A stretch of DNA of 64,000 nt. It comes from Phycisphaerales bacterium (GTDB lineage: Bacteria; Planctomycetota; Phycisphaerae; Phycisphaerales; SM1A02). Position 1 is the first letter of the stretch. Each line of letters starts with the position of its first letter. A program made the translations under genes and the position numbers. The stretch spans positions 4,303 to 68,302 of the forward strand of contig JABABM010000006.1 of the NCBI GenBank assembly GCA_014238205.1, read 5' to 3'. Shown piece by piece: positions 8,139-23,830 of the stretch. The notes beneath the pieces were generated by a model that had not been told where the DNA came from, did not search any database, and saw only the letters and a program-made list of their open reading frames with translations.

Positions 8139-9245
8139 ATGCGGAGCCTGCCGATGCCACCACGCCGGACCACGGCGTCAATCCAGGGAAGACCCTCATG
8201 GATGCCCTCCATGGCAATGGCCTCCTCCTGCCTGTTGAGCATCTTCTACGTCCTTCCAGCCATGGCTGCTGACGGGCCGGTGTGTGCAGATGGGGCTGCT
8301 CCCTCCCCGTCGATGTTTGCTCCGCGGTCGATCCCGGCACAGAAGATTCTCGATGTAAGTTGGTTCGTCTGGGGAATCTGTGGATTGATCTTCCTGATCA
8401 TGGCCGCATTGATTCTCTGGTGCATCATCAAGTACCGCCAGAGGCCCGGAGATGACACTGAAGCGCCACAGATATACGGTTCGAATCCGATTGAACTTGC
8501 CTGGACCATCATCCCGACCGTGATCGTCTTCGTGCTCTTCCTGGTTTCAGCCAGGACGATCTTCGAAATAGACCACACCAGCCCCCCTCCTGGTTCGCTC
8601 GAGATAACCGTGGTCGGTCACCAGTGGTGGTGGGAGTTCGACTATCCGGACCAGGGGTTCGTCACAGCCAATGAACTGCACGTGCCACTGACACGCGACG
8701 GCAAGTCTGTTCCGATCTACCTGACGCTTGAATCCAATGACGTCATCCACAGTTTCTGGGTGCCCCAACTTGCCGGGAAGACCGATGTCGTTCCCAACAG
8801 GCTCAACCACCTCTGGCTTCAGCCAACGATGGTGGGTACCTACGTCGGCCAATGTGCCGAGTACTGTGGTACCCAGCATGCAAACATGCTCATTACTGTC
8901 GTCGTCCACGAAGAGGATGACTTCAATGAATGGGTCACGAACCAGCGAACGGATGCAGTAGATGAACCAGGTGTGACTGAAGGTCGAAACCTGTTCCTGC
9001 AGACTTCATGCATCAACTGCCACAGGATCAGGGGAACGGTCGCAAACGGCACCTTTGCGCCCGATCTGACGCACCTGATGAGCCGGAGCGTGATCGGAGC
9101 CGGTGTTGTCGCCAATACCCCCGAGAACCTCAGTACATGGGTCTTTGATCCCCAGATGATCAAGCCCGGATGCCGAATGCCCTCCATGAAACTCTCACCG
9201 GAGGAGGTCAAGCAAGTTGTTTCCTACCTCCTCACTCTCAAGTAG
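8139..9245 (+). CDS. coxB: cytochrome c oxidase subunit II with C-terminal cytochrome c (caa3 type)
   Basis: A 368-residue first gene of the respiratory operon. A signal segment ends near PAMAADG. Two transmembrane helices follow (about 70-95 and 115-140), then the CuA cupredoxin domain with WWWEF and the binuclear copper ligands C239, C243 and H247 in CAEYCGTQH. A cytochrome c domain is fused at the C-terminus, with CINCH at 291-295 and a distal Met in RMPSM. This is the caa3 arrangement, in which the oxidase carries its own electron entry haem. The start is uncertain: ATG 8139 follows a weak AGGGGA, and ATGs at 8154 and about 8201 are also possible. The 107-base upstream gap probably holds the operon promoter. 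Confidence 0.94.
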   Translation: MRSLPMPPRRTTASIQGRPSWMPSMAMASSCLLSIFYVLPAMAADGPVCADGAAPSPSMFAPRSIPAQKILDVSWFVWGICGLIFLIMAALILWCIIKYRQRPGDDTEAPQIYGSNPIELAWTIIPTVIVFVLFLVSARTIFEIDHTSPPPGSLEITVVGHQWWWEFDYPDQGFVTANELHVPLTRDGKSVPIYLTLESNDVIHSFWVPQLAGKTDVVPNRLNHLWLQPTMVGTYVGQCAEYCGTQHANMLITVVVHEEDDFNEWVTNQRTDAVDEPGVTEGRNLFLQTSCINCHRIRGTVANGTFAPDLTHLMSRSVIGAGVVANTPENLSTWVFDPQMIKPGCRMPSMKLSPEEVKQVVSYLLTLK

Positions 9246-9261
9246 AAGAAAGCCGACACGA

Positions 9262-10941
9262 ATGACAACCCTTAAGCAACCAGGACAGACGAACGGCTCG
9301 GGATACCTCCGTGCACCGTTCCTGTCACGGCTGCATGAGTGGATTTCCACTGCCGATCACAAGAAACTCGGCGTGATGTACGTATCGACCGGCCTGATCT
9401 TCTTCCTGATCGGCGGGCTGGAAGCGACGATGATGCGATGGCAGCTTGCAGTCCCGGGGAACACGGTGCTTTCCCCAGAGGATTTCAACCGGCTGTTCAC
9501 GATGCACGGAACCACCATGGTCTTCCTGGTAGGGATGCCCATCTTGCTTGGTGTTGCCAACTACTTCGTCCCATTGCAGATCGGAGCACGTGACCTGGCC
9601 TTCCCGAGGCTGAATGCCTTCGGCTTCTGGCTCTTCCTCTTCGGCGGACTCCTCCTCTACTTCAGTTACTTCGGCGCACAGGGGCTCTACGGGATGGGAT
9701 CCGCTCCGGATGTGGGGTGGTTCGCCTATGCGCCCTTGACTGAACGGACCTATTCACGGGGCCACAGTACGGACTACTGGATTCTCGGCCTGCTTGTCAG
9801 TTCATTCGGATCGATCGCCACCGGCATCAATCTGATCACGACGATCCTGACCATGCGATGTCGTGGCATGACGCTCATGAAGATGCCGCTGCTGGTCTGG
9901 CTCATGCTCATCGATGCGATCCTGATCATGATCGCCATGCCTCCCCTGGCAGCCGCACAGGTCATGCTCCTCTTCGACCGACTCATGGGAGCACATTTCT
10001 TCGACCCCCAGGGAGGTGGGTCCGCCGTCCTCTGGCAGAACCTCTTCTGGTTCTTCGGTCACCCCGAGGTCTACATTCTCATTCTTCCGGCATTCGCCTA
10101 CGTCTCGGAGATCATCCCCGTCTTCTGCCGGAAGGTCATCTTCGGCTACCCGCTCATGGTTGCAGCGACGGTCTCAATCGGCTTCATCAGTCTTGGCGTC
10201 TGGGTGCATCACATGTTCGCCCTGGGCCTGAGCCCCATGGTCAACACCATCTTCATGGGATCCACCTTCCTGATCGCGATCCCGACCGGTATCAAGATGT
10301 TCAACTGGGTGGGAACCATGTTCGGCGGAAAGATCCGCTTCGATACGCCGATGCTCTTTTGCACCGGCTTCCTTGCCATGTTCCTCATCGGGGGATTGAC
10401 CGGCGTGATGCTCGCCACCGTCCCCTTCGACTGGCAGGTCAGCGATTCCTACTTCGTCGTCGGCCATTTTCACTACGTGCTGTTCGGTGGCCTCGTCTTC
10501 TCCATCTTCGCCGCCATCTACTACTGGTTCCCGAAGGTCACCGGAAAGATGCTGTCCGAATCGCTTGGCAAGTGCCAGTTCTGGCTGCTCTTCATCGGGT
10601 TCAACCTGACCTTCGGACCGATGCACGTATCCGGCATGCTCGGCATGCCACGCCGCATCTACACCTACCACGCTGATCGAGGCTGGGAGCTCTGGAACAT
10701 GCTCTCCTCCATCGGCGTCCTGATCCAGATTGCCGGCGTCCTCTTCTTCGCCTGGAACGTCTTCCGCTCACTCAGGTCGGGCCGGAAGGCCGGGCCGGAT
10801 CCGTGGGACGCCTGGACTCTTGAATGGTCGACGGCCTCTCCCCCTCCCGAATACAACTTCGAAGAAGAACCTGTCGTGTACTCACGCCGTCCCCTGTGGG
10901 ACAAGAAGCACCCTGAAGACCCCGATTGGAAGTACGAATAG
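9262..10941 (+). CDS. coxA: cytochrome c oxidase subunit I
   Basis: A 559-residue catalytic subunit of a haem-copper oxidase, a twelve-helix membrane protein that reduces oxygen and pumps protons. The signature WFFGHPEVYILILPAF includes the CuB histidine and the Tyr of the His-Tyr cross-link. GVWVHHMFALG supplies the two other CuB histidines, and VVGHFHYVLFGG supplies the haem a3 and haem a histidines. HGTTMVFLVG carries the low-spin haem ligand. The YVSEIIP sequence after HPEVY is the A-family form. The open frame begins at 9217 with an unlikely start inside coxB; ATG 9262 is chosen because MTTLKQPGQ fits the family N-terminus and clears coxB by 16 bases. Confidence 0.96.
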   Translation: MTTLKQPGQTNGSGYLRAPFLSRLHEWISTADHKKLGVMYVSTGLIFFLIGGLEATMMRWQLAVPGNTVLSPEDFNRLFTMHGTTMVFLVGMPILLGVANYFVPLQIGARDLAFPRLNAFGFWLFLFGGLLLYFSYFGAQGLYGMGSAPDVGWFAYAPLTERTYSRGHSTDYWILGLLVSSFGSIATGINLITTILTMRCRGMTLMKMPLLVWLMLIDAILIMIAMPPLAAAQVMLLFDRLMGAHFFDPQGGGSAVLWQNLFWFFGHPEVYILILPAFAYVSEIIPVFCRKVIFGYPLMVAATVSIGFISLGVWVHHMFALGLSPMVNTIFMGSTFLIAIPTGIKMFNWVGTMFGGKIRFDTPMLFCTGFLAMFLIGGLTGVMLATVPFDWQVSDSYFVVGHFHYVLFGGLVFSIFAAIYYWFPKVTGKMLSESLGKCQFWLLFIGFNLTFGPMHVSGMLGMPRRIYTYHADRGWELWNMLSSIGVLIQIAGVLFFAWNVFRSLRSGRKAGPDPWDAWTLEWSTASPPPEYNFEEEPVVYSRRPLWDKKHPEDPDWKYE

Positions 10942-10944
10942 TTC

Positions 10945-11577
10945 ATGTCTGCAACACCGACATCTCCCGTCACCCCGCTCCTTTCGCCTCCTGAAGCAAT
11001 GTCACAGGCGATGGACAGTGGCAAGTGCGGCATGCTCTGCCTGATCTGCTCCGAGATCACCTTCTTCGGAACCCTGCTGGCCGTCTACCTGTTCTACATA
11101 GGCAAGGATCCAGCCGGCACCCCCACCCCGAGCGAGGTACTCGAGGTCTCGGCGGCACCGATGAAGGTGGTCTTCAACTCGTTCTTCCTTCTTACAAGTT
11201 CCATCTGGATCACCCTTGCCGTGAGATCACTTCGAAAGGGAGCCATGCGAGCCTTCGCCTTCTGGTGGCTCCTGACGATTCTCTTCGGCATCGAGTTCCT
11301 TGTCGGCACCGGCATGGAGTGGTACGGAATGATCGCCGACCAGGGATTGACCATCAGGACCAACCTGTTCGGATCCGGCTTCTACACGGTCGTCGGCTTC
11401 CATGCTGCGCACGTGGCCATCGGCCTGTTCCTGCTGAGCCTTGTCTTCGTCCTGACGCTGCTTGGCTTCATGCACAAGCGGCATGCCGAGAAGATCGAGC
11501 TCCTCTCCTGGTACTGGCACTTCGTCGACGGCATCTGGATCGCCGTCTTTACCATCGTCTACATCATCGGCCGCTGA
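10945..11577 (+). CDS. coxC: cytochrome c oxidase subunit III
   Basis: A 210-residue integral membrane subunit of the oxidase. The family pattern is clear: MDSGKCGMLCLICSEITFFG in helix 1, a run of helices, GFHAAHVAIGLFLL with the conserved histidines, and the C-terminal SWYWHFVDGIWIAVFTIVY. It has five helices, as usual for caa3-type subunit III, not the seven of the mitochondrial form. It starts 3 bases after coxA and ends 6 bases before the next gene, so translation is likely coupled. Confidence 0.94.
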   Translation: MSATPTSPVTPLLSPPEAMSQAMDSGKCGMLCLICSEITFFGTLLAVYLFYIGKDPAGTPTPSEVLEVSAAPMKVVFNSFFLLTSSIWITLAVRSLRKGAMRAFAFWWLLTILFGIEFLVGTGMEWYGMIADQGLTIRTNLFGSGFYTVVGFHAAHVAIGLFLLSLVFVLTLLGFMHKRHAEKIELLSWYWHFVDGIWIAVFTIVYIIGR

Positions 11578-11583
11578 TACCCC

Positions 11584-12429
11584 ATGGCACATGACACGCA
11601 ACAACCCGGCACCGAGAACGGCATCCACCTTCCAGCACCGACCTCTTCGCCGTTCGTCTGCGCCTTCGGAGTGACACTGATCTTCACGGGGATCGTCACG
11701 ATCTGGAGTGTCAGCATCATCGGCTTCGTCATCGCACTTGTCGGAGCCATTCGGTGGTGGAAGGAAGTGCTCCCGGACAACGTCCACCAGCTTGTTCCAT
11801 TGGAAGAGGAACGTGTCTCCATCGACCCCAAGCCAGGCGGTGTTGCACACCTCATGGTCCCCGGTGGCACGCACCGAGCCAGAATTCCGATCGAAATCCA
11901 CCCCTATGGTGCTGGAGCCATCGGTGGACTGCTCGGTGGCCTTTCCATGGCGATCATCGCCATCGTCTACGGGATCATTGCAGAGGGCAGCCCCTGGTAC
12001 ACGGTCAACATCCTGGGCGCAACAATCCTGCCCTCGCTCAGCCAGGAGGATGCCTCTCAACTTGCACAATGGCATACATGGGGCTTCCTCTTCGGCACCC
12101 TGATCCACGTGTCCATGTCGATCATGATCGGCCTGCTCTACGGGGTCGTACTTCCCATGATTCCCCGGGGAAGAATCCTCTTTGCTGCAGCCTTCATACC
12201 ACTGCTCTGGTCAGGGCTGGCCTGGGGATCACTCCGGGTGGTCAATCCCGTCCTGAATGACCATGTCGACTGGACGTGGTTCATCATTTCGCAGATCGTC
12301 TTCGGCGCAGTCTGCGGATTCATCGTGACACGCAGCGAGCGAATAAGCACGATGCAGAACTGGTCGATGCTCGAACGAACCGGCATGGAAAGTCCAGGAG
12401 TTCCTTCAATCGGTGGAGATGACGAATGA
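11584..12429 (+). CDS. multi-pass membrane protein of the oxidase operon, subunit IV-like N-terminus
   Basis: A 281-residue protein that I do not recognise as a named family. Residues about 25-65 form a pair of hydrophobic segments ending IRWWKEVLP, resembling the short cytochrome oxidase subunit IV/CoxD found after coxC in many operons. A soluble linker follows with IPIEIHPYGAGAIGGL, and then about four more helices (roughly 115-145, 165-195, 200-225, 230-255). Several conserved-looking His and Trp residues (QWHTWGFLFG, LIHVSMS) sit at helix ends. It lies between coxC and the dihaem cytochrome and overlaps the latter by 4 bases. It may be an accessory or structural subunit bridging the oxidase and the cytochrome b complex. 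Confidence 0.6.
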   Translation: MAHDTQQPGTENGIHLPAPTSSPFVCAFGVTLIFTGIVTIWSVSIIGFVIALVGAIRWWKEVLPDNVHQLVPLEEERVSIDPKPGGVAHLMVPGGTHRARIPIEIHPYGAGAIGGLLGGLSMAIIAIVYGIIAEGSPWYTVNILGATILPSLSQEDASQLAQWHTWGFLFGTLIHVSMSIMIGLLYGVVLPMIPRGRILFAAAFIPLLWSGLAWGSLRVVNPVLNDHVDWTWFIISQIVFGAVCGFIVTRSERISTMQNWSMLERTGMESPGVPSIGGDDE

Positions 12430-13190
12430 TGCAACGCCTGACCTCATTGAGCATGGCGATCATCGGGGTATTCCTCGTCGGCTGTGACTGGATGCCGGGC
12501 AAGCCCACGCGAGCCGAGGAATCGGTGCTTCCGACCGATGTCCATGCATTCAATACGCTCTACTCGGCCAACTGCAGTGGATGCCATGGCGCCAATGGGC
12601 AGTTCGGTGCTGCACGACCTCTCAACGACCCCCTCTACCTCTCGCTGGCAGACACCGCCTACCTCGTACAGGTCACGACCGACGGGGTCCATGGCAGCCT
12701 GATGCCCCCCTTTGCACGCAAGCAGGGCGGCGGGCTCACGAACCAGCAGGTCAGTGACATCGTCAATGGAATGCACCGAACCTGGGGCAATGCCGACGAC
12801 AGCCAGGCCGCACCACCTCTGGTTTCAAGCACGAAAGGGAATCCCGCACGTGGAAGTTCCCTGTTTGCGTCTCACTGTGCAGCATGCCATGGCAAGGGTG
12901 GAACCGGTGGCCGGACTGCAGGCTCGGTCGTCGACAGTACGTACCTGTCACTTGTCAGCGACCAGTCGCTTCGGAGTGTCATCATCTGCGGCCGACTGGA
13001 CCTGGGCATGCCCAACTGGCAAGGGACCCTCAATGGTTCGCCTGCCAGTGAGCGTGATGGCCTGCCGCCTCTCAACGACAGGCAGATCAGCGATCTGGTC
13101 GCCTTCCTGGCATCACACCGGGTGGAATTCCCCGGCGCCCCCTTCCCATCACTGGGCAACCCGCGAGGCAGTGGAACACAGGTGCCATGA
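12426..13190 (+). CDS. dihaem cytochrome c lipoprotein (QcrC-like)
   Basis: A 254-residue exported electron carrier. The signal peptide ends in a lipobox, FLVGC, with the lipidated cysteine at 20. Two class I cytochrome c domains follow, with haem motifs CSGCH (50-54) and CAACH (151-155) and distal Met candidates in SLMPPF and LGMPNW. The domain order, haem lipoprotein then Rieske then cytochrome b, is that of qcrC-qcrA-qcrB. This makes it a candidate for the tethered cytochrome that passes electrons from the cytochrome b complex to the caa3 oxidase. The start overlaps the preceding stop by four bases (ATGA). Confidence 0.88.
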   Translation: MMQRLTSLSMAIIGVFLVGCDWMPGKPTRAEESVLPTDVHAFNTLYSANCSGCHGANGQFGAARPLNDPLYLSLADTAYLVQVTTDGVHGSLMPPFARKQGGGLTNQQVSDIVNGMHRTWGNADDSQAAPPLVSSTKGNPARGSSLFASHCAACHGKGGTGGRTAGSVVDSTYLSLVSDQSLRSVIICGRLDLGMPNWQGTLNGSPASERDGLPPLNDRQISDLVAFLASHRVEFPGAPFPSLGNPRGSGTQVP

Positions 13191-13202
13191 GGACATACGA
13201 CA

Positions 13203-13778
13203 ATGCCTGAATCATTTGACTACAAGGAAGCCCCGGATGTACAGATGCTCGGCGAGCCCGGGGGGCCCGCGCCATCACGTCGCGGATTCCTCTTCTGGCT
13301 TGGAGCGGCACTGAATGTCGTCGTTGGCCTGCTCGTCGCCGTTCCCATTCTCGGGTACGTCTTCTCCTCGTGGAAACGTGACGACTGGCAAGCCTGGGTC
13401 GACCTGGTCCCTGGCGGCGTTGATGACTTCCCTCCTGGCCAGACCCGGCTGGCAACCTATCGCAACCCACCCGAATTCGATGTGACCTGGGATGGGTATA
13501 CAGCCGACACCCCCTGCTGGGTTCGGCGTCTTGAAGATGGAAGTTTCAACGTCTTCGCCATCAACTGCACGCACCTTGGCTGCCCGGTCCGCTGGTTCCC
13601 AGAATCAAAACTGTTCATGTGCCCATGCCACGGAGGTGTCTACTACGCGGACGGCTCGCATGCCGCCGGCCCCCCGCCTCGTGGGCTATACCCCTACAAG
13701 ATCGACCAGGACGCGCTGAAGCAGGGACGACTTCGCATCCTCGCCGGCCGACTTCCAACACTCCAGGAAACAACCTGA
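13203..13778 (+). CDS. Rieske iron-sulfur protein of the cytochrome b complex
   Basis: A 191-residue [2Fe-2S] subunit. The N-terminus has a twin-arginine-type motif, SRRGFLFW (25-32), and one hydrophobic helix that stays as a membrane anchor. The cluster ligands are in CTHLGC (122-127) and CPCHGG (140-145), spaced closely enough for a short cluster-binding subdomain. A GPPPRGLY proline loop follows. Its role is to accept an electron from quinol and pass it to cytochrome c. It is 12 bases after the dihaem cytochrome gene and 13 bases before cytochrome b. The high similarity of its motifs to QcrA/PetC makes the call firm, although the distinction between bc1 and b6f types is not settled by this protein alone. 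Confidence 0.93.
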   Translation: MPESFDYKEAPDVQMLGEPGGPAPSRRGFLFWLGAALNVVVGLLVAVPILGYVFSSWKRDDWQAWVDLVPGGVDDFPPGQTRLATYRNPPEFDVTWDGYTADTPCWVRRLEDGSFNVFAINCTHLGCPVRWFPESKLFMCPCHGGVYYADGSHAAGPPPRGLYPYKIDQDALKQGRLRILAGRLPTLQETT

Positions 13779-13791
13779 GATCCACTCACCG

Positions 13792-15249
13792 ATGTTTGCA
13801 TCCGTCATCAACTGGTTTGAAGAACGCCTGAAACTCGGGGAGACCCTTGGTCCCTCGATGACGCACTCCGTTCCCATGAGTGCCAGATGGTGGTACGTCT
13901 TCGGAAGCATGACGTTGACGATCTTCATGCTGCAGATTGCAACTGGAATCTGCCTTTCCCTCGTCTACGTACCCTCGGCCGATGAAGCCTACGCCAGTCT
14001 CGAGTACCTCAACTACCGGCAACAGATGGGGTGGTTCCTTCGCGGGATGCACGTGTGGGGTTCCCACCTGATGATCGCCTTCATGACGATCCACATGATC
14101 CAGGTCTTCCTCTACGGTGCCTTCAAGTACCCACGTGAACTGACCTGGATCGTCGGTGTGCTCCTCTTCCTGTGCACCCTGGCCATGGGGTTCACAGGAC
14201 AGGTCCTTCGATGGGATCAGGATGCCTACTGGGGCCTTGGCGTCGGCATGGCCATGGCCGGGCGAGTCCCCTTCATCGGTCCTGAACTGGTGTATTTCGT
14301 GCTCGGTGGCCCGACCATCGGCGGCGAAGCGCTCTCCCGATTCTTCGCGCTGCATGTCTTCGTGATCCCAGGGACCCTGATCATGCTCATCGGCGCCCAC
14401 CTGTTGCTGGTCATCAAGTGCGGCATCAACGAAGCCCCGACCCCGGGATACCAGGTCAACAAGGCGACCTACAGGGAGACCTACGAGAAGGAAGTGCACA
14501 AGCGAGGAATGCCCTTCTTCCCGAACGCCGCGGGCAGGGACATGATTGCCTGTGGAATCGTGCTCTTCCTCGTGTTCTTCTGTGCAGCCTTGTTCGGACC
14601 AGCCGGGCCCAACGGCGAACCCGACCCGACACTCATTCATACTGCTCCACGGCCTGACTTCTATTTCCAATCGATCTTCGCCGTGCTTGCACTGCTTCCA
14701 CCCTACATGGAGACATTCCTGATCATGGCATTCCCGGTGCTTGCACTGGGAGTACTCCTGCTGCTGCCGTTCACCTCGGGCGATGGAGAAAAGAGCTGGA
14801 GACGCCGTCCCTTCTCGGTGATCACGGTCATCTTCATTCTGCTTGTCCTGAGCAGCCTGACATACCTTGGGTACAAGTCCCCCTGGTCACCAGTCATGGA
14901 CGCCTGGAGCGGCATTCCAACGCCGACACAATACGTCCAGGGAAGATCTCCCCTGGAACTGCAGGGTGCATTGATCATCCAGGGCAAGCAGTGCAGGAAC
15001 TGTCACATGCTTGAAGGTCGAGGTGGAGAGCGAGGACCTGAACTGGACTATGTCGCTACCCGGCTGACCCGGGATGAACTCATCAGGCAGGTTGTCCAAG
15101 GTGGTGGGAACATGCCCGCATACGGCAAGAACCTTTCTCCATCGGAGGTCACGGCCCTGGTCTCCTTCCTCATGACACTCCACCCGGAATGGGAGCGCGA
15201 GCCTGGCGCCGAGGAATCGAACGTGCCACGCCCGACGACCGGTCCCTAG
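13792..15249 (+). CDS. cytochrome b (b6/subunit IV type) fused to cytochrome c
   Basis: A 485-residue quinol-oxidising subunit. The first half is a four-helix cytochrome b with paired histidines in GSHLMIAFMTIHM and FFALHVFVIPGTLIMLIGAH, the latter giving the 13-14 residue spacing of haem ligands. Residues about 215-375 carry a subunit IV-like part with three further helices. After a proline-rich link, a cytochrome c domain has CRNCH (401-405) and NMPAYGKNL with a possible Met ligand. Fusing a haem c to the end of cytochrome b places an extra redox centre by the Rieske protein. Such fusions are known in several phyla. The gene is in the same run as coxBAC. Confidence 0.92.
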   Translation: MFASVINWFEERLKLGETLGPSMTHSVPMSARWWYVFGSMTLTIFMLQIATGICLSLVYVPSADEAYASLEYLNYRQQMGWFLRGMHVWGSHLMIAFMTIHMIQVFLYGAFKYPRELTWIVGVLLFLCTLAMGFTGQVLRWDQDAYWGLGVGMAMAGRVPFIGPELVYFVLGGPTIGGEALSRFFALHVFVIPGTLIMLIGAHLLLVIKCGINEAPTPGYQVNKATYRETYEKEVHKRGMPFFPNAAGRDMIACGIVLFLVFFCAALFGPAGPNGEPDPTLIHTAPRPDFYFQSIFAVLALLPPYMETFLIMAFPVLALGVLLLLPFTSGDGEKSWRRRPFSVITVIFILLVLSSLTYLGYKSPWSPVMDAWSGIPTPTQYVQGRSPLELQGALIIQGKQCRNCHMLEGRGGERGPELDYVATRLTRDELIRQVVQGGGNMPAYGKNLSPSEVTALVSFLMTLHPEWEREPGAEESNVPRPTTGP

Positions 15250-15294: not shown

Positions 15295-17634
15295 ATGTCA
15301 CCCACCACGCGGGCCATGCTGGAATCCTGGAACTTCGACCCCCTCCTGTGGTTCCCCCTGCTGCTTGCCCTGGTGCTCTACTTCCGTGGCTGGCGGCACC
15401 TCCATGGCCGCCTGCCAACCCGTTTCCCGAGATGGCGGCTGTACTGCTACACCTCCGGCCTGTGGGTGACATGGCTTGCCATCGCCTCGCCACTGGATGC
15501 ACTTGGAACACTCCTGCTCTCGGTCCACATGACACAGCACCTGCTGTTGATGATGGTGGGCCCACCATTGATCCTCCTTGGAGCACCTGGTCTGCCGATG
15601 CTCATGGGACTGCCTCGGACCATTCGCAGGTACTGGGTCGGCCCCTTCCTTGCATGGGGCGCATTCCGTCGAGGAGCTCGCTTCATGGTCCATCCTGTCG
15701 TTGGGTGGACCTTGTTCTTCATCGCGACCTGGGCTTGGCATGTTCCCGTTCTCTACGAAGCGGGTCTCCGAAATCCCACGTGGCATGTCATTGAACATGC
15801 ATGTTTCATCTTTACAGCGACGCTCTTCTGGTGGCCGGTGATTCAACCATGGCCCAGCAGCCCCCACTGGCCCCGGTGGGCAATGATTCCATACCTGCTC
15901 CTGGCCGATCTTCAGAACACGATCTTCTCCGCCTTCTTCTGCTTCAAGGAGACACCGCTCTATCAGTCGTATGCATCTGCGCCTCGCATCACCTCCCTGG
16001 ATGCGCTCCAGGATCAGTCGCTTGCGGGTGCGATCATGTGGGTTCCAGGATCGATCATCTACCTGGTTCCAGTCGCAATCCTGCTCCGCTCACTGCTGGC
16101 GCCAAGGCTGGTCAATCCTGCCAAGATGAAGCTTGCAGTTGCAGGGCATGCCTCCCGGGTCTCCCTGACTGTCCTTGATGCACATGGCCAGGTGCAGGAA
16201 TCATTTGGAGGCGGCATCACAGAACGTGATGCTGCGTTGAAGGACCATGGAAGGCGAGGCTCGCTCATTGCTCATCCAGCCTTCAGGCGAAGTCTGCAGT
16301 CGATCATGATCCTTCTGGCCGTTGCCGTGATCCTTGATGGCCTCCTTGGTCCCGAGGTAAGTCCGTTGAACCTTGCCGGTGTGCTTCCCTGGACGCACTG
16401 GAGAGGGCTGGTCGTCCTGGCACTGCTGCTAGCAGGGAACCTCTTCTGCTTTGCATGTCCCTTCATGCTGCCCAGGGAACTGGGCAAGAAACTGTTCAAT
16501 CCGACACGGCCATGGCCAACCTGGCTTCGATCGAAATGGATCGCTGTCGGGCTGCTGCTGGGGTTTCTCTGGTCCTACGAGGTACTGAGCCTCTGGGACA
16601 GCCCGTGGCTGACGGCATGGATCATCATCGGGTACTTCTTCGGGGCCATCGTCATTGATTCGTGTTTCCGCGGCGCCAGTTTCTGCAAGTATGTCTGCCC
16701 GATCGGGCAGTTCCATTTCGTCCAGTCCCTGGCGTCGCCTCGCGAGGTTCGCATTCGAAGTGCGTCCGTCTGCAGTACCTGTTCGACACACGACTGCATC
16801 AAGGGCAACGAGCAGCACCGTGGATGTGAGCTTGACCTGTTCCAACCCCGGAAGAACGGAAACATGGACTGCACGTTCTGCCTCGACTGCGTGCGTGCCT
16901 GTCCGCAAGACAACGTGGGCCTGCTCCCGAGCATCCCGGGCAACAGCCTTGTCCACGATCCCAATCGCTCATCGGTCGGCAGGTTCTCAACCCGGTGGGA
17001 CATCTGCGCCCTCGTGGCGGTACTTGTCTTCGGCGCCTTTGCCAATGCACTTGGCATGGTTGGGCCGGTCCTCGAGACGGAAGCTCGCTGGCAGGAACAA
17101 CTTGGCCTCGAATCGATTCTTCCGGTCGCCACCGCGACGTTCTTCACAGTTGCAGTACTCATCCCGGCCGTACTCCTGCCGTTGGCGGGCCTGCTCTCCA
17201 AGGCAGCAGGCCCATCGCGGGAACGTTTCAAGGCGATCACCATCCGAGGAACCCTCGGGCTGGTTCCGATCGGATTTGCCATGTGGCTCGTCCACATGCT
17301 CTTCCACCTCCTGACAAGCTGGCTCACTGCCTGGCCAGCTGCGCAGCGTGTCATGCAGGATCTCGGAGTGAGCCTGTTTGGCGAACCTGCCTTCGCCATG
17401 TCGTGCTGTGGACCTGCCCCAAACTGGCTTCTGCCTGTTGAGATCCTGCTCCTTGATCTTGGGCTCCTGCTTTCTCTCTACGTGCTCTACAGGCTGGCCA
17501 GGCAGATGGTGACCGGGGTCATCTCGGAACTTCGCTTTCTCCTGCCGTGGGCCGTGGTGGCCTTCGCCCTCTACTGTGCAGGCGTGTGGATCATTCTTCA
17601 ACCCATGCAAATGCGGGGGACCATGCTGCCATGA
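15295..17634 (+). CDS. CtaG-like oxidase assembly domain fused to a NapH/CcoG-like polyferredoxin
   Basis: A 779-residue membrane protein with two parts. Residues 1 to about 285 match the CtaG family that helps assemble caa3 oxidase, with MTQHLLLMMVGPPLILLG and a seven-helix pattern. After a soluble linker (about 285-335), residues 340-779 resemble the membrane polyferredoxins NapH, NosR and CcoG. These contain FCFACP (C385, C388), CKYVCP (C464, C468), CSTC...C (C493, C496, C501) and a complete 4Fe-4S motif at C526, C529, C532 and C536. More helices follow. CcoG-type proteins handle copper reduction during oxidase assembly, so a fusion could couple copper reduction to delivery. The open frame is continuous, with no sign of a missed stop. 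Confidence 0.85.
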   Translation: MSPTTRAMLESWNFDPLLWFPLLLALVLYFRGWRHLHGRLPTRFPRWRLYCYTSGLWVTWLAIASPLDALGTLLLSVHMTQHLLLMMVGPPLILLGAPGLPMLMGLPRTIRRYWVGPFLAWGAFRRGARFMVHPVVGWTLFFIATWAWHVPVLYEAGLRNPTWHVIEHACFIFTATLFWWPVIQPWPSSPHWPRWAMIPYLLLADLQNTIFSAFFCFKETPLYQSYASAPRITSLDALQDQSLAGAIMWVPGSIIYLVPVAILLRSLLAPRLVNPAKMKLAVAGHASRVSLTVLDAHGQVQESFGGGITERDAALKDHGRRGSLIAHPAFRRSLQSIMILLAVAVILDGLLGPEVSPLNLAGVLPWTHWRGLVVLALLLAGNLFCFACPFMLPRELGKKLFNPTRPWPTWLRSKWIAVGLLLGFLWSYEVLSLWDSPWLTAWIIIGYFFGAIVIDSCFRGASFCKYVCPIGQFHFVQSLASPREVRIRSASVCSTCSTHDCIKGNEQHRGCELDLFQPRKNGNMDCTFCLDCVRACPQDNVGLLPSIPGNSLVHDPNRSSVGRFSTRWDICALVAVLVFGAFANALGMVGPVLETEARWQEQLGLESILPVATATFFTVAVLIPAVLLPLAGLLSKAAGPSRERFKAITIRGTLGLVPIGFAMWLVHMLFHLLTSWLTAWPAAQRVMQDLGVSLFGEPAFAMSCCGPAPNWLLPVEILLLDLGLLLSLYVLYRLARQMVTGVISELRFLLPWAVVAFALYCAGVWIILQPMQMRGTMLP

Positions 17635-18176
17635 TGGCCTGTCGATACGCCATTCTGGTACTCCTGCTGGGGCTGCTCTCGGAACCACTCCTGGCTGACG
17701 GCGGCATCGTTCGTGCATCAACTGTCAGTGGCTCGTGGCGACTGACCATGTTCTCCTCCCCGACACCGCTCCGGGCCGGTCCCGTCGACCTGTCGGTGCT
17801 CCTCCAGGACGTGGCAACAGACCAACCAGTGCTCGGCGCAACAGTCAATCTCATGCTTCGACACCCCGACAGCGAACCCCTCCTCGTCGAGGCCACTCGT
17901 GCATCGGCAACGAATCGCCTCCTCTACGCTGCGCTCCTTGAACTGCCGCATGCAGGGACATGGACAATCGATGTCCTGGCGGTCAAAGGCGATCTTGAAG
18001 GACGCCTCCAGGCAGGCCTCGAGGCTGGGCCACCCCTTCCCCGCCTGCTGTCCCTCTGGACATGGCTGGCAATCCCGGGGATCGTGCTCATTGTGTTCGT
18101 GCTCAACCAGTGGCTCATCCGGACACGGCACGATTCACCAGACCCAGAACCAGGCCCAGGCCCAGGATCATCATGA
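17631..18176 (+). CDS. YtkA-like exported protein with C-terminal membrane anchor
   Basis: A 181-residue protein with a signal peptide (MMACRY, a Leu-rich core, ending LLADGG) and a single YtkA-like beta-sandwich (about 35-140). The sandwich has TPLRAGPVDLSVLLQD, VLGATVNLML and HAGTWTIDVLAV, the usual pattern of this domain. One helix lies at about 147-167, followed by a short charged and proline-rich tail. YtkA-like domains often occur near copper-handling and oxidase-assembly genes, and FixH/CcoH proteins resemble them. The ATGA overlap with the CtaG fusion gene indicates translational coupling. A role in oxidase assembly is inference from context. Confidence 0.7.
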   Translation: MMACRYAILVLLLGLLSEPLLADGGIVRASTVSGSWRLTMFSSPTPLRAGPVDLSVLLQDVATDQPVLGATVNLMLRHPDSEPLLVEATRASATNRLLYAALLELPHAGTWTIDVLAVKGDLEGRLQAGLEAGPPLPRLLSLWTWLAIPGIVLIVFVLNQWLIRTRHDSPDPEPGPGPGSS

Positions 18177-18706: not shown

Positions 18707-18742
18707 TTGAGTTCGTAACTTTCCAAGGTGAAAGGAGATTCC

Positions 18743-19015
18743 ATGGCCAAGGCCATCGTCGATCCAACTGAACTACGCAAGTTCGCCAATGACCTGAAGC
18801 GATTCAGTGAAGAACTGCATACGCAGATGAACATGCTGAATACCAGGAGCCATGCACTCGGGCAGTCGTGGAAAGACCAGGAACACAGGAAGTTCCTGGA
18901 TGAGTTCGAGCAGGCACTTCGAGTCCTCCTGAAGTTCCAAGTCGTCGTGAAGGAGCACATTCCCTTCCTCCTTCGCAAAGCACAGCGAGCCGAGGATTAC
19001 CTCCAACAGCGTTGA
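18743..19015 (+). CDS. WXG100-family protein (type VII secretion substrate-like)
   Basis: A 90-residue helical protein of the length and pattern of ESAT-6/WXG100 proteins. It has two amphipathic helices joined by a turn with W43-K44-D45 in place of W-x-G, in SWKDQEHRKFLDEF, followed by the conserved hydrophobic spacing of helix 2. There is no signal peptide and no cysteine. WXG100 proteins form helical-hairpin dimers and are exported by, or guide substrates to, an FtsK/SpoIIIE ATPase. The start at 18743 is supported by AAAGGAGA at 18731-18738. An upstream ATG at 18728 would place the ribosome site inside the coding region. It is followed by the coiled-coil gene after a 17-base gap. Confidence 0.8.
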   Translation: MAKAIVDPTELRKFANDLKRFSEELHTQMNMLNTRSHALGQSWKDQEHRKFLDEFEQALRVLLKFQVVVKEHIPFLLRKAQRAEDYLQQR

Positions 19016-19032
19016 CCTCACGGAGTTCCGCC

Positions 19033-19689
19033 ATGGCCGAACAGGCCAATGTTCGTTCCATCGATTCGATAGCCGTCTTTCGGGCGGCGCTCATCAACTA
19101 CATCGAATCCATCCGCGCAACCACGAGTGAAGCCAAGAGCCATGTTCTGCGCATGCAGCACTGGGTCGGTGAAACCCAGAAGCTCGAGTGGACACGCAGG
19201 AAGAAGAAGTGCAACGAGCAACTGGCCAATGCCAGGAGCGACCTTGAACGAGCCAAGATCGCACGACCAGACGCACATCCATCCATGTTCAGCGACCAGG
19301 TCAGGGGAGTTGAGCGAGCCAAGCAGGCCCTGGCCCACAGTGAAAACAAGCTGGTGGCCATCGCTCGCTGGTCTCGTGAACTGGAACGCGAAGGCATGCT
19401 TTTCCAGGGAAGTCTGCAGCGGCTTTCACGAGTCGTCGATGGCGACCTGGAACGATGCACTGCCTGGATGGCTGCGCTGATCGAGCACCTGAATGCCTAT
19501 CTCAAGACTCCACCACCGAAACTTCCCAAGGCAGAAGCGGCTGAAATGAATCAACCAGGTGCACGGCGAGGCGGCACCGAACCGACAAGATCAACAAAGG
19601 GAGATGACGGCAATGAGCCTGACTTCGAATCGAGCCAAACTCCAACGGCTGACGAAGGACCTGACGATCAAGTGGGATCGAACGACTGA
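19033..19689 (+). CDS. coiled-coil protein of the WXG100 cluster
   Basis: A 218-residue protein of unknown function that is mostly alpha-helical. Residues about 10-165 show continuous heptad-like helix: IAVFRAALINYIESIRAT, RRKKKCNEQLANARSDLERA, VERAKQALAHSENKLVAIA. The tail (about 170-218) is disordered and rich in Pro, Gly, Asp and Glu. There is no membrane segment or signal peptide. It sits between the two WXG100-like genes, and its end overlaps the second one by 77 bases in another frame. Its position suggests a chaperone, adaptor or structural partner of the system. The start ATG 19033 removes a poor N-terminal extension and lies just after the preceding stop. Confidence 0.7.
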   Translation: MAEQANVRSIDSIAVFRAALINYIESIRATTSEAKSHVLRMQHWVGETQKLEWTRRKKKCNEQLANARSDLERAKIARPDAHPSMFSDQVRGVERAKQALAHSENKLVAIARWSRELEREGMLFQGSLQRLSRVVDGDLERCTAWMAALIEHLNAYLKTPPPKLPKAEAAEMNQPGARRGGTEPTRSTKGDDGNEPDFESSQTPTADEGPDDQVGSND

Positions 19690-19825
19690 AGACTGGAACG
19701 ATCCCATGAGCAGGCGTTTCCAGACCGAGTTCCTGGAACTTCTCCAGCGCTCCGTGGTCGCATCATCCGAGGCGATGGACACCATGAACGAAGTCCTCAT
19801 GCGTGCCCAGCGGGATTGCGAGTGA
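19613..19825 (+). CDS. second small WXG100-like protein
   Basis: A 70-residue helical protein with a W28-N29-D30 motif between two helices, in EDWNDPMSRRFQTEFLELLQ, closely matching the W-K-D pattern of the upstream WXG100 protein. Its first helix is about 15 residues shorter than usual. The start at 19613 has AAGGGAG about ten bases upstream; ATG 19604 would add three residues. The first 77 bases overlap the coiled-coil gene in a different reading frame, implying coupled translation. It could be the partner subunit in a WXG100 heterodimer, as EsxA/EsxB are, but this is inference. Its small size makes it easy to miss in automated annotation. Confidence 0.68.
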   Translation: MSLTSNRAKLQRLTKDLTIKWDRTTEDWNDPMSRRFQTEFLELLQRSVVASSEAMDTMNEVLMRAQRDCE

Positions 19826-19900
19826 CCCCCCCTCTGACCCTACAATGAAGCAGGAGGCCGCCGCATCACGGGGCCTAGGGGATCAAGAACAACGACCACG

Positions 19901-22900
19901 ATGAACGACTCCCATTCACCCAGCCATGCTGCAGCACTGATCGAGCAACTTCGCTCGCTGGTCAATCGGACCACGACCATGATCTCGAAGGCTGACGAGG
20001 ATCTCTCGTCGATCACTTCGAAGGCTGATGAGAAACGTACCGAAGAAACAACCGCGTTGGAGGAACGCAACACCGAGGCCAGGGAAACCGAGGAGGGGCG
20101 ACATGAGTCCGCCATGACCTCTCTTCAGCAGGAAGTGCAGGAACGCATTGCCCATGCCAAGGAGCAGTATGAAGGCCGCAAGAGTGAAATCAACGAAGAA
20201 GCCGACCAGATGCAGAGCTCGGCTCGAAAGAATCTCAGCGAGCAGGAATGGCTGGCCGAGAGTGTCTTCGAAGCAACCGGCAGCGAACCACGCAAGCGAC
20301 TTGAACTGACTCGAAGGGAAATCAACAGGTACCTTGAACGCCTCGACCAGTTCGAGGAGTCCGAGGCGAAGTTCCGGACACGATGCAAGATGACCTGCGC
20401 GGATGCATCCTCACAACCATCGATCGCCGAAACAAGCAGCGATCTCGAGGATGCACTTGCCTCGATCGGTTCACAGATCGATGTCTGCCAGAACGCTCTC
20501 CGATCGCTCTTCCGACTTCCCGCTCCTCGATGCTTCATCGGTCCGGTGCCGCTGCTGCTGATTCTCCTTGGTGAAGTTCTTGCATGGGCTGGCTTGACTG
20601 CCTATTTCATGCTGTCTGAGCAACAGGAGTTTCTTGATGCCGCGACGGGGTCTCTCTGGTGGAGCCTGCTGAGCCCTGCCGCTGTTCTCATTGCCCTGCT
20701 CCTTGTCAAGCAGATCGCACTCAGGCAGTACCGGTCGCGAAGAAACGTCGTGGCTGAAGAAATCGCCAGGGCTCGAGCCATGTGCGATGACATTGATCGT
20801 GTCGGGGAAGAACAGTGCAACATCGAGGAAGACGCACATCGGAACAAGCGGGACCGGGAACTGAAGCAGGCCAGGGAGACGATCGCCCCGAAGCTTGAAC
20901 AGATCTCACCTCGCCGCGAACGACGACATGAGAAACTCGAGGAGAACTACAAGGAACTTCTTGAGAAGATCAATGAACGCCAGCGGGAGAAGGTCGAGGA
21001 GGAGACTCGGCAACACGACGACATCGTCGGCGTACTGGATGCCGAGGAAGCGGATGCTCGAAGTGCGATCGAATCTTCCTGGAACAGTACTACTGATGCG
21101 GCAAGGACGTCGCATGCGTCCACGGAAGATGAACTCAAGTCCCGCTGGAACGAAGGCACATCGTATTTCCGTGAAGCGATGGATGCGATCGACATCATGT
21201 CCAGGGAGTGCATTCCCGACTGGGACGATGCATCCTGGTCGGACTTCAAGGGCAGGGACACTTTCAATGGACTGATCCAATATGGAAGTTACGACGTCGA
21301 CATGAGCACACTGGACGAGGCAGGCATGCCGCCTCCGGATCGCTTCCCCTGGCCCATGGAAGACAGGTTCACCATGCCGGCCATGCTTCACCTTCCACAT
21401 TCCGGGTCGCTCTACCTGGAGTTCTCGGAGCATGGCAGGGAGCAGGCCGTTCGAGTCCTGCAGGCCTCAATGCTGCGAATGCTTGCATCGATGCCTGCAG
21501 GAAAGATCCGTTTCACCGTGATCGACCCTGTTGGACTTGGGCAGAACTTCGCCGGGTTCATGCACCTGGCCGATCACGAGGAAGGTCGCATCCTCGAGAA
21601 GATCTGGACCGAGTCCCGGCATATCGAGCAGCAGTTGATGGACTTGTCGGAGCACATGGAGACCGTGATCCAGACCTACCTCCGCAACGAGTACGAAACA
21701 ATCGACGAGTACAACATCGCAGCCGGGGAAATTGCCGAACCTTACAGGTACCTCGTAATCGCCGACCTGCCGGTAAACCTCACCGAAACTGCTGGCAAAC
21801 GACTGTCGAGCATCATGCAGACCGGCGCTCGGTGCGGGGTCTACACCCTTGTCGCCTGCGATGCGAGGCAGAACCTGCCCAGAGACGTCCTGCGTGAAGA
21901 TCTCGTGGAGCACAGTGACGTCATCCAGATCGGCGATGGAGGCTGCAAAGCTGCGGATGCCGCCTTGCAACCATTCACGTTGGAACTTGACACACCTCCC
22001 GGGGATGAACAACTGACCAGGATCGTCAAGGCTGCCGGAGATGCCGCGGAACAATCCCGCCGTGTCGAAGTACCCTTCAACATGATCGCCCCGCCTCCCG
22101 AGGAGTACTGGACAGGATCAACCGCCAAGGAGATCCGCGTCCCACTTGGACAGACCGGCGCCACGAGGCACCAGAACCTCGTGCTTGGCCGGGGCACTTC
22201 CCAGCATGCACTCGTTGCAGGCAAGACGGGTTCCGGTAAATCGACGCTGCTGCATGTGCTGATTACGAACCTTGCACTCTGGTACAGCCCGGACGAGATC
22301 GAGTTCCACCTCGTCGACTTCAAGAAGGGCGTGGAGTTCAAGACCTATGCCGAACACGGGCTCCCCCATGCCCGGGTCATCGCGATTGAAAGCGATCGGG
22401 AGTTCGGACTCAGCGTCCTTCAGCGGATTGACCGTGAACTGAAGGAGCGAGGGGAGCGATTCCGCGATCTTGGCGTCCAGGATCTTGCCTCGTTCAGGTC
22501 AAATACGGGCGAATCCTTGCCACGAGTGCTGCTTGTCGTCGATGAATTCCAGGAGCTTTTCGTAGACGACGACAAGTTGTCACAGGATGCCGCACTCCTG
22601 CTCGACCGCATCGTGCGGCAGGGTCGTGCATTCGGCATTCACGCACTGCTTGGCTCACAGACACTCGATGGCTCCTATTCTCTGGCAAGAAGCACCCTCG
22701 GACAGATGGGCGTGCGGATTGCCCTGCAATGCACCGAGGCGGATTCCTACCTCATCCTCAGCGAAGAGAATGCGGCAGCAAGGCTCCTGGAGCGACCTGG
22801 CGAAGCAATCTACAACGACGCCGGGGGGAAGGTCGAGGGAAACAACTCCTTCCAGGTCTGCTGGCTTGATGACTCGGTACGGGACCACTATCTCGACGTG

Positions 22901-23830
22901 GTCCACTCCCTTGTAAAGGAACGGAACCTGGACCTTCCGACCCCCTTCGTCTTTGAAGGAAACATCCCGGCTGATCTGACCGAGTGCCGACTGCTTGAAA
23001 CCGCCCTCGCAGAACAGCCGACACATACACCTGCTTCGATCAACTGCTGGGCCGGCGATGCCATCGCCATCAAGGACCCAACGGCCTTCACACTCCAGTT
23101 GCAGAGTGGCTCGAACCTCATGGTCGTCGGCCAACGCGAAGAGTCTGCAACAGCGCTCTTCATGGCATCGATGCTCTCGGCTGCGGCACAATCACCACCA
23201 GTGGCTTCAACCGGCGAGCCTGGAGTGCGATTCGTCATACTCGACGGGCTTGCCTCCGATTCCGATCTCCATGGCCGACTCGAATCCCTGGGAACAAGCC
23301 TGCCCTACGCCTGTACGGCTGGGACACATCGGGAGTCCAGGGAGATCCTGAACGAACTTGGCGCTATTCTCGAGGAACGCAGGTCCACCGGCGAAGCCTC
23401 CGGGCCGAGGACCATCGTGATCCTTCATGGGCTGCACAGGCTCAGGGAACTTCGAAGACCGGAAGATGACTTCTCCTTCTCGATGCGTGATGAAAATGAA
23501 CCTGCCAGCCCCCATGCCATCCTGATCGAACTTCTCAAGGATGGACCGGCACTTGGCATCCATGTTCTCACCTGGGTCGATACGCTGAACAACCTCAACA
23601 GGACACTCGATCGAAGCAGCCAGCGGGAATTCGAGATGCGAATCCTCTACCAGATGAGTGCAAACGATTCATCACAATTGATTGATTCACCTGCTGCAGG
23701 CGGTCTTGGGCTCCAGCGAACCCTGTTCTGCAGTGAAGATACTGGAACCGAGGAAAAGTACAGGCCCTGGGCCATGCCCGAAGAGGCCTGGCTGAATGCT
23801 GCGGTCGAACGACTTCGTACACGGCCCTGA
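19901..23830 (+). CDS. FtsK/EssC-like ATPase with coiled coils, core of a type VII-like system
   Basis: A 1309-residue membrane ATPase. Residues 20-200 are charged coiled coil. Two helices at about 212-237 and 252-272 anchor it, and a second coiled coil runs about 280-410. Three FtsK/SpoIIIE-like ATPase domains follow. The middle one is intact, with Walker A GKTGSGKST (774-782), Walker B VVDEF (D881, E882), and an LLGSQTLDG sensor. The first lacks a P-loop, and the third has a degenerate one (GQREESAT, from 1077). In EssC/EccC of Firmicutes and Actinobacteria the chain also has tandem ATPase domains that push WXG100 proteins across the membrane. The FHA domains of EssC are absent here; coiled coils replace them. 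The start is the first ATG after the gap. Confidence 0.85.
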   Translation: MNDSHSPSHAAALIEQLRSLVNRTTTMISKADEDLSSITSKADEKRTEETTALEERNTEARETEEGRHESAMTSLQQEVQERIAHAKEQYEGRKSEINEEADQMQSSARKNLSEQEWLAESVFEATGSEPRKRLELTRREINRYLERLDQFEESEAKFRTRCKMTCADASSQPSIAETSSDLEDALASIGSQIDVCQNALRSLFRLPAPRCFIGPVPLLLILLGEVLAWAGLTAYFMLSEQQEFLDAATGSLWWSLLSPAAVLIALLLVKQIALRQYRSRRNVVAEEIARARAMCDDIDRVGEEQCNIEEDAHRNKRDRELKQARETIAPKLEQISPRRERRHEKLEENYKELLEKINERQREKVEEETRQHDDIVGVLDAEEADARSAIESSWNSTTDAARTSHASTEDELKSRWNEGTSYFREAMDAIDIMSRECIPDWDDASWSDFKGRDTFNGLIQYGSYDVDMSTLDEAGMPPPDRFPWPMEDRFTMPAMLHLPHSGSLYLEFSEHGREQAVRVLQASMLRMLASMPAGKIRFTVIDPVGLGQNFAGFMHLADHEEGRILEKIWTESRHIEQQLMDLSEHMETVIQTYLRNEYETIDEYNIAAGEIAEPYRYLVIADLPVNLTETAGKRLSSIMQTGARCGVYTLVACDARQNLPRDVLREDLVEHSDVIQIGDGGCKAADAALQPFTLELDTPPGDEQLTRIVKAAGDAAEQSRRVEVPFNMIAPPPEEYWTGSTAKEIRVPLGQTGATRHQNLVLGRGTSQHALVAGKTGSGKSTLLHVLITNLALWYSPDEIEFHLVDFKKGVEFKTYAEHGLPHARVIAIESDREFGLSVLQRIDRELKERGERFRDLGVQDLASFRSNTGESLPRVLLVVDEFQELFVDDDKLSQDAALLLDRIVRQGRAFGIHALLGSQTLDGSYSLARSTLGQMGVRIALQCTEADSYLILSEENAAARLLERPGEAIYNDAGGKVEGNNSFQVCWLDDSVRDHYLDVVHSLVKERNLDLPTPFVFEGNIPADLTECRLLETALAEQPTHTPASINCWAGDAIAIKDPTAFTLQLQSGSNLMVVGQREESATALFMASMLSAAAQSPPVASTGEPGVRFVILDGLASDSDLHGRLESLGTSLPYACTAGTHRESREILNELGAILEERRSTGEASGPRTIVILHGLHRLRELRRPEDDFSFSMRDENEPASPHAILIELLKDGPALGIHVLTWVDTLNNLNRTLDRSSQREFEMRILYQMSANDSSQLIDSPAAGGLGLQRTLFCSEDTGTEEKYRPWAMPEEAWLNAAVERLRTRP

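Follow-up and report, generated by a model that had tools for sequence, protein, structure and literature searches.

The window (the whole 64,000-nucleotide stretch of Phycisphaerales bacterium DNA that was analysed) contains an oxidase operon on the plus strand, to which the gene and motif coordinates of the operon given below refer. It begins with coxB, encoding subunit II with a fused cytochrome c (8139..9245), coxA for subunit I (9217..10941; PF00115) and coxC for subunit III (10945..11577; PF00510). There follow a 281-aa membrane protein without a Pfam match (11584..12429), a dihaem cytochrome c (12426..13190), a Rieske protein (13203..13778) and a cytochrome b with a fused cytochrome c (13792..15249); coxB and these last three rest on Pfam matches. 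Next comes the gene studied here (15295..17634), a fusion of an oxidase assembly domain and a redox module. The order closes with a FixH/YtkA-like membrane-anchored protein (17631..18176), whose start codon lies on the fusion stop codon in an ATGA overlap. Its match to PF05751 (E 4.2e-4, 20.8 bits) falls below the cut-off of 23, and YtkA is matched weakly in 7 of 17 members. Because CoxB carries a fused cytochrome c domain, we class the oxidase as caa3-type; an earlier note on this DNA had correctly put the fusion next to caa3 genes, and its place is near the end of their operon. Past the operon, this planctomycete has at 18728-23830 of the window a type VII secretion-like cluster, which is syntenic in four relatives (L031, L032, L033 and L040) and encodes a WXG100 protein (PF06013, E 1.3e-6), a 225-aa protein of unknown family and an FtsK/SpoIIIE ATPase of 1309 aa.

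The operon context of the fusion is conserved. All 13 relatives examined (L031-L043) keep the cox-bc genes and the fusion in synteny, and the 281-aa membrane protein is retained in each of these 13. Among the best 80 of 285 relatives, 51 fused loci have at least 7.5 kb of upstream sequence: all seven cox-bc genes lie upstream in 43 and coxA in 45, and in the remaining six, coxB, coxA and coxC are absent from the fetched stretch. A FixH/YtkA-like gene, detected with a profile built from trimmed seeds, follows within 900 nt in 65 of these best 80 loci, and five of the other 15 are contig ends. Two verrucomicrobial fusions (L080 and L120) have no cox genes within the locus, and each adjoins a similar 272-aa gene, which in L080 encodes a universal stress protein by Pfam.

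The fusion opens with ATG and runs through 779 codons with no internal stop, encoding a 779-aa protein with 16 predicted membrane helices and both termini predicted outside. The earlier note had read this single frame as a CtaG-like domain, a linker and a NapH/CcoG-like part, a layout that Pfam, TIGR02163 and the uninterrupted frame bear out. Residues 27-267 (15373..16095) are assigned to a Caa3_CtaG domain by ligand conservation and by PF09678 (E 3.5e-57; 194 bits, above the Pfam cut-off of 27.7), which matches all 13 members of alignment A1. Against the equivalog model TIGR02737, the protein scores 63.4 bits, below the cut-off of 279.35. Judged by these profile scores, the CtaG half is a member of the Caa3_CtaG superfamily outside the Bacillus equivalog. 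A Pfam search of the window protein gave no match to Cox11_CtaG (PF04442), and the Pfam hits of 13 fusion members, up to E 1, included no CopD domain. The variable linker (residues 269-327; 16099..16275) is predicted to be cytoplasmic and has a pLDDT of 41-49 across most of its length. The rest (residues 328-779; 16276..17631) is a polyferredoxin module with extra C-terminal membrane helices, recognised by a sub-threshold TIGR02163 match and by alignment with unfused relatives.

Domain searches thus put the Caa3_CtaG domain above its cut-off and the NapH-like module below. NapH/MauN-type ferredoxin proteins are the best family match of the redox half: residues 373-541 reach E 7.1e-7 and 29 bits against the NapH model TIGR02163 (cut-off 213.05), which is also found in 12 of 13 fusion members. 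Pfam ferredoxin models match the window copy weakly, and relatives reach E 2.6e-5 for Fer4_5. The CcoG/FixG model TIGR02745 gave no match for the window protein and matched one of 13 members at E 0.0047, short of its cut-off. In profile comparisons, one for each family, the module aligned with NapH at E 2.3e-14 over both CxxCP/CxxxCP regions and the cluster region, and with CcoG at E 2.8e-7 over the two Cys-Pro regions. By this similarity the module has its homologues in the NapH/CcoG superfamily and is nearer to NapH than to CcoG, passing neither curated cut-off. The earlier label of NapH/CcoG-like therefore holds for the superfamily and not for membership in either family. Apart from its score, the module differs from NapH/MauN proteins in its oxidase operon and in a C-terminal membrane part with HxxxH and PMxMRG.

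We aligned the window protein with the 74 fused loci among the best 80 of 285 relatives, giving 75 rows. Twelve cysteines are conserved, each in 74-75 of 75 rows. Four lie in the motifs that the earlier note had recognised, C385-F-A-C388-P (residues 385-389; 16447..16461), predicted at the cytoplasmic end of a membrane helix, and C464-K-Y-V-C468-P (residues 464-469; 16684..16701), both present in 75/75 rows. The other eight, C493 to C536, then P537, make up a ferredoxin loop (16771..16905; 74-75/75 rows) with the spacing C493-x2-C496-x4-C501-x9-C511 and C526-x2-C529-x2-C532-x3-C536-P. The 4Fe-4S motif noted earlier is present, and its count needs correcting, as the eight loop cysteines likely suffice for two clusters, not one. 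The second motif fits CxxCxxCxxxC; the first, CxxC-x4-C-x9-C, is unusually spaced. Two clusters of the CxxCxxCxxxC form occur in all 20 CcoG proteins of a 61-genome set, and the fusion has one.

Conservation extends to membrane sites that the earlier note had passed over. H667-x3-H671 (17293..17307), within a predicted membrane helix, is present in 75/75 rows and in unfused relatives too. The protein ends in P-M-Q-M-R-G (17602..17619), predicted outside, and PMxMRG closes all 73 rows that cover the position, an invariance that is partly built in because the loci were found by the patterns QPMxM and NLAG, the former favouring the motif. It is also invariant in the 13 rows of A1, gathered without the QPMxM pattern, and PMxMR stands in 16/16 rows of A2. 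In the CtaG half, H78, M79, Q81, H82, H149, H164, H168, D240 and Q241 are invariant in every covering row. D240 (75/75, predicted outside) is a candidate for the invariant outer-side Asp of the family, D249 in B. subtilis. We rejected chance as the source of these motifs on their conservation over 75 rows.

The predicted topology, 16 helices with N- and C-termini outside, places 38 Lys/Arg residues in loops on the inside against 5 in loops on the outside. An AlphaFold2 model from 79 sequences reached a mean pLDDT of 89.5 and a pTM of 0.69, with the linker disordered, and so surpassed an earlier model built on 13 sequences (pLDDT 73). All 12 conserved cysteines are predicted on the cytoplasmic side. 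The CtaG His/Asp ligand cluster is predicted mostly at outer helix ends on the periplasmic side, H667/H671 inside a helix and the C-terminal Met pair M771/M773 outside. A PDB sequence search with the single protein found no match, and one with the module profile retrieved solely ferredoxin-like Cys stretches (best E 0.0044). On the model, Foldseek gave no match at E <=0.001 and VIA-align none with a Z of at least 8, neither of which by itself establishes a new fold.

This topology bears on whether electrons might pass outward to the periplasm through the module. On such a reading, the clusters would send electrons to Sco, to the cysteines of the CuA site in CoxB or to periplasmic copper and hold these in the reduced state, and CtaG would only anchor the protein to nascent oxidase. 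The H667/H671 pair in the membrane and the outer-face Met residues offer a possible path; moreover, one unfused module adjoins Sco (L122), and CtaK/YtkA and Sco belong to CuA assembly (PMC9145763). However, in the 75-row alignment, read with the predicted topology, the module has no conserved pair of cysteines on the periplasmic side; the 12 that are conserved are all predicted cytoplasmic, and we consider electron export unlikely.

One fused homologue separates the clusters from the membrane sites. This protein (L014 in G006; L014:304-2271, minus strand) has lost all ferredoxin cysteines and retains CVACP, CAWVCP, HxxxH, PMxMRG and the CtaG motifs, so the Fe-S clusters may be dispensable in some homologues. 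If its assembly is correct, the membrane Cys, His and Met sites would be important even without clusters, which argues for metal binding at these sites and against an absolute cluster requirement.

The window genome carries one copy of the fusion in a fragmented assembly of 78 contigs, which leaves room for an artefact, a frameshift or assembly error that joined two genes, as the earlier note had cautioned. We found no frameshift. In a search of 61 genomes (its own and relatives), 20 gave some match, and in 13 of the 61, the window's and 12 related genomes, the fusion is a single ORF. G008 is a fourteenth fusion genome, counted by the order of its pieces; runs of N with duplicated ends interrupt this copy, so that it is not shown as one ORF, and we rejected introns or splits there. 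The survey for the same fusion that the earlier note had proposed was made on named genomes, with the redox-half profile and loci found by the peptide patterns QPMxM and NLAG. The CtaG domain shares the ORF in 74 of the best 80 of 285 loci. Four of the six others (L054, L072, L115 and L118) start at contig edges, and L105 and L122, both Gemmatimonadota, are genuinely unfused. In a comparison with the congener G001 (87% identity), the CtaG part has a dN/dS of 0.045, the linker one of 0.166 and the remainder of the protein one of 0.059; these low values indicate purifying selection on both halves and thus that the fusion is not a chance product. That it is an artefact is almost inconceivable.

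The fusion occurs in Planctomycetota, Verrucomicrobiota, Acidobacteriota and Myxococcota, and the family is found in many members of the first three; one cultured carrier is Lacipirellula limnantheis I41 (L058). An even phylum sample of 199 genomes gave some match in 49, the full-length fusion in 3 and strong module-only matches (>500 bits) in 6; viral contigs gave no match. A candidate triple fusion of CtaG, module and FixH (L095) was not counted, as four unreadable residues stand at the join. G029 has a second redox-module fragment with an internal TGA (L029, in G029:C230) as well as an intact fusion. Besides its fusion, G004 encodes two divergent stand-alone CtaG proteins of 327 and 304 aa (L025 and L030, in G004:C44), and three Sco matches share their contig.

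How the join arose can be read from a tree of 87 fused and 21 unfused redox modules (108 in all, duplicate or partial loci having been removed before counting), built by a quick method and rooted on the Nap-associated branch. Fused rows and four contig-edge rows form one branch (SH-aLRT 99), in which Planctomycetota, Verrucomicrobiota, Acidobacteriota and Myxococcota are all represented, and the fused and unfused states are separated by one change. As far as the sample shows, a single joining event therefore occurred and was then kept. Separate genes with no functional link had been named as a finding that would speak against the note, an objection that fails on the single clade of the fusion. 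Unfused versions do exist, and the one with the fullest neighbourhood, L122 (Gemmatimonadota), lies in a row of SCO1 (E 1.5e-34), YtkA (E 3.6e-10), module and FixH-like gene. YtkA also precedes the unfused modules of L151, L152, L153 and L154, and L156 has similar upstream sequence; the L155 contig begins at the module, and no YtkA-type gene was seen upstream in L105. Other modules (L015 and L016, in L044 and L045) carry an N-terminal YHS domain and lie beside Nap-type nitrate reductase genes, and L159 to L162 have similar clusters, judged from ORF order and sequence. In L045, YtkA is matched very weakly (E 0.24) by a C-terminal stretch of the neighbouring NapH protein.

These neighbourhoods point in two directions: unfused modules beside copper factors support a copper role, and modules in nitrate-reductase clusters support a general electron-transfer origin. 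The fusion might accordingly be a NapH-like quinol or respiratory conduit in which the module takes electrons from menaquinol or supplies them to an enzyme, joined to CtaG for electron transfer and not for metal loading. NapH is its best family match and the stronger of the two profile comparisons, and relatives, some with YHS domains, adjoin NapA- and NapG-like genes. Yet the Nap-associated modules branch apart from the fused clade, no NapA/NapG-type reductase gene lies beside the fusion in the operon, and the partner to which the module is fused is a copper-site factor, as are some of the nearest neighbours of unfused modules. We regard such a conduit as quite improbable.

Assembly factors were counted across the same 61 genomes. 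Cox11 was found in none and Sco in 54. PF09678 exceeds its cut-off in 16, including by definition all 14 fusion genomes; the two without the fusion include one contig-edge fragment (G011). CcoG is over its cut-off in 20, ccoN in 21 and both together in 19, and from these co-occurrence counts we conclude that CcoG pairs with cbb3 and the fusion with caa3. Fusion and CcoG meet in one of the 14 fusion genomes (G016), a weak exclusion (Fisher p 0.024, 0.056 within family, kinship ignored).

Several known systems share parts of this architecture. CtiP of Corynebacterium glutamicum, needed by the bc1-aa3 oxidase, is a CopD-Caa3_CtaG fusion with 16 predicted segments (PMC9145763). Like the window protein, it joins Caa3_CtaG to a second membrane copper-related module, but its partner is an N-terminal CopD, for which the source passages mention no Fe-S motif, whereas the window partner is a C-terminal polyferredoxin. 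CcoG, encoded in a ccoGHIS cluster adjoining oxidase genes, is a cupric reductase that has two copper sites besides its two 4Fe-4S clusters (PMC7558416). CcoG/FixG/RdxA proteins resemble the window module in being membrane proteins with CxxxCP motifs and two 4Fe-4S clusters, which for the module are predicted. They differ in that CcoG serves cbb3, and the window protein has another first-cluster spacing, extra C-terminal helices and a fused CtaG, and falls short of the curated CcoG model. Archaeoglobus fulgidus CopZ combines an Fe-S domain and a copper chaperone in one protein and mediates the reduction of Cu(II) (PMC7558416); unlike the window membrane fusion, it is cytosolic and no oxidase assembly factor.

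In Bacillus subtilis, Caa3_CtaG, CtaK/YtkA and Sco act in caa3 assembly (PMC9145763, PMC13344008) as products of separate genes, in contrast to the fused CtaG of the window. CtaK/YtkA is thought to work with Sco, and added copper does not cure the ctaG defect (both PMC13344008, PMC9145763); PMC13344008 also reports no CcoG homologue in Firmicutes. The name CtaG covers two unrelated families, and no Caa3_CtaG structure was available to PMC8239418. One model takes the cytoplasm as the source of copper for CuB, and the role of Caa3_CtaG in CuB insertion is described as tentative (PMC9145763). The earlier claim that CtaG aids copper insertion accordingly survives for a Bacillus-type Caa3_CtaG, not for Cox11, and with the CuB role tentative. 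In the open literature, with most subscription papers outside the search, we found no description of a CtaG-polyferredoxin fusion, papers on FesM and polyferredoxins held nothing useful on it, and a literature search found no copper or redox assay for the family. The domains and the style of fusion are known; their combination and conserved operon role look undescribed.

Haem, instead of copper, might be what the electrons serve. Cox15 is ferredoxin-dependent, and the module could give electrons to the haem A synthase CtaA while the haem a3-CuB centre forms. CtaG function is intertwined with CtaA in forming that centre (PMC8239418). Against this, ctaA was not seen among the scanned operon genes, and the inactive oxidase of B. 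subtilis ctaG mutants retains haems a and a3 (PMC9145763); we judge a role in haem A synthesis very unlikely.

We favour, with about as much doubt as conviction, the reading that the fusion is a dedicated caa3-type oxidase assembly factor that couples a supply of electrons from Fe-S clusters to the handling of copper, most likely by reducing Cu(II) and passing Cu(I) on to CtaG. This assembly-factor reading is favoured because the fused proteins form a single clade, the join is present in 74 of the best 80 of 285 loci and the gene lies in the cox-bc operon; because the 12 cysteines are predicted inside, the CtaG ligands outside and H667/H671 is conserved; and because Cox11 occurs in 0/61 genomes, Sco in 54/61 and CcoG in 1/14 fusion genomes. 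Its copper component is helped by the unfused L122, which adjoins Sco and YtkA. It is weakened because the module fails the CcoG cut-off, its first cluster spacing is unusual and it has Nap-cluster homologues, and because L014 lacks the ferredoxin cysteines, 6/51 loci have no coxA within the fetched sequence and the CuB role is tentative. What we observe is the fused gene and how it is conserved, one origin within the sample, the operon and the conserved ligand set; copper involvement, reduction, its direction and the CuB target we infer. The integrated copper device of the earlier note thus stands as a conserved fusion in an oxidase operon; its copper reduction is conjectural, and relatives occur in nitrate-reductase clusters.

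In the mechanism we propose, a cytoplasmic donor would reduce the two putative 4Fe-4S clusters in the cytoplasmic loop, and these would in turn reduce Cu(II) at the cytoplasmic face, where the CxxCP/CxxxCP thiols lie. The resulting Cu(I) would pass to the His/Asp ligands of CtaG, perhaps by way of H667/H671 within the membrane and the two Met residues on the outer side, and CtaG would deliver it into CoxA at CuB; the coupled FixH/YtkA-like protein may assist on the outer side. In its boldest form, which we think doubtful, the protein would be a one-piece vectorial machine, in which built-in Fe-S clusters drive Cu(II) reduction at cytoplasmic thiols and Cu(I) is relayed via His/Met sites to CtaG and CuB. 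It would then be to caa3 oxidases what CcoG is to the cbb3 type, and a dedicated P-type ATPase might not be needed.

The fusion bears on two questions, the function of Caa3_CtaG and the identity of the copper reductase that serves caa3 oxidases; a recent study takes up the need for a cupric reductase that acts locally (PMC13344008). A natural fusion of CtaG with a NapH/CcoG-superfamily module links both steps in a single protein with invariant Cys, His and Met. That the same join is kept in several phyla suggests that copper reduction and delivery may be carried out by one device. To our knowledge, oxidase assembly has been little studied in Planctomycetota, Verrucomicrobiota and Acidobacteriota, the phyla in which this family is widespread.
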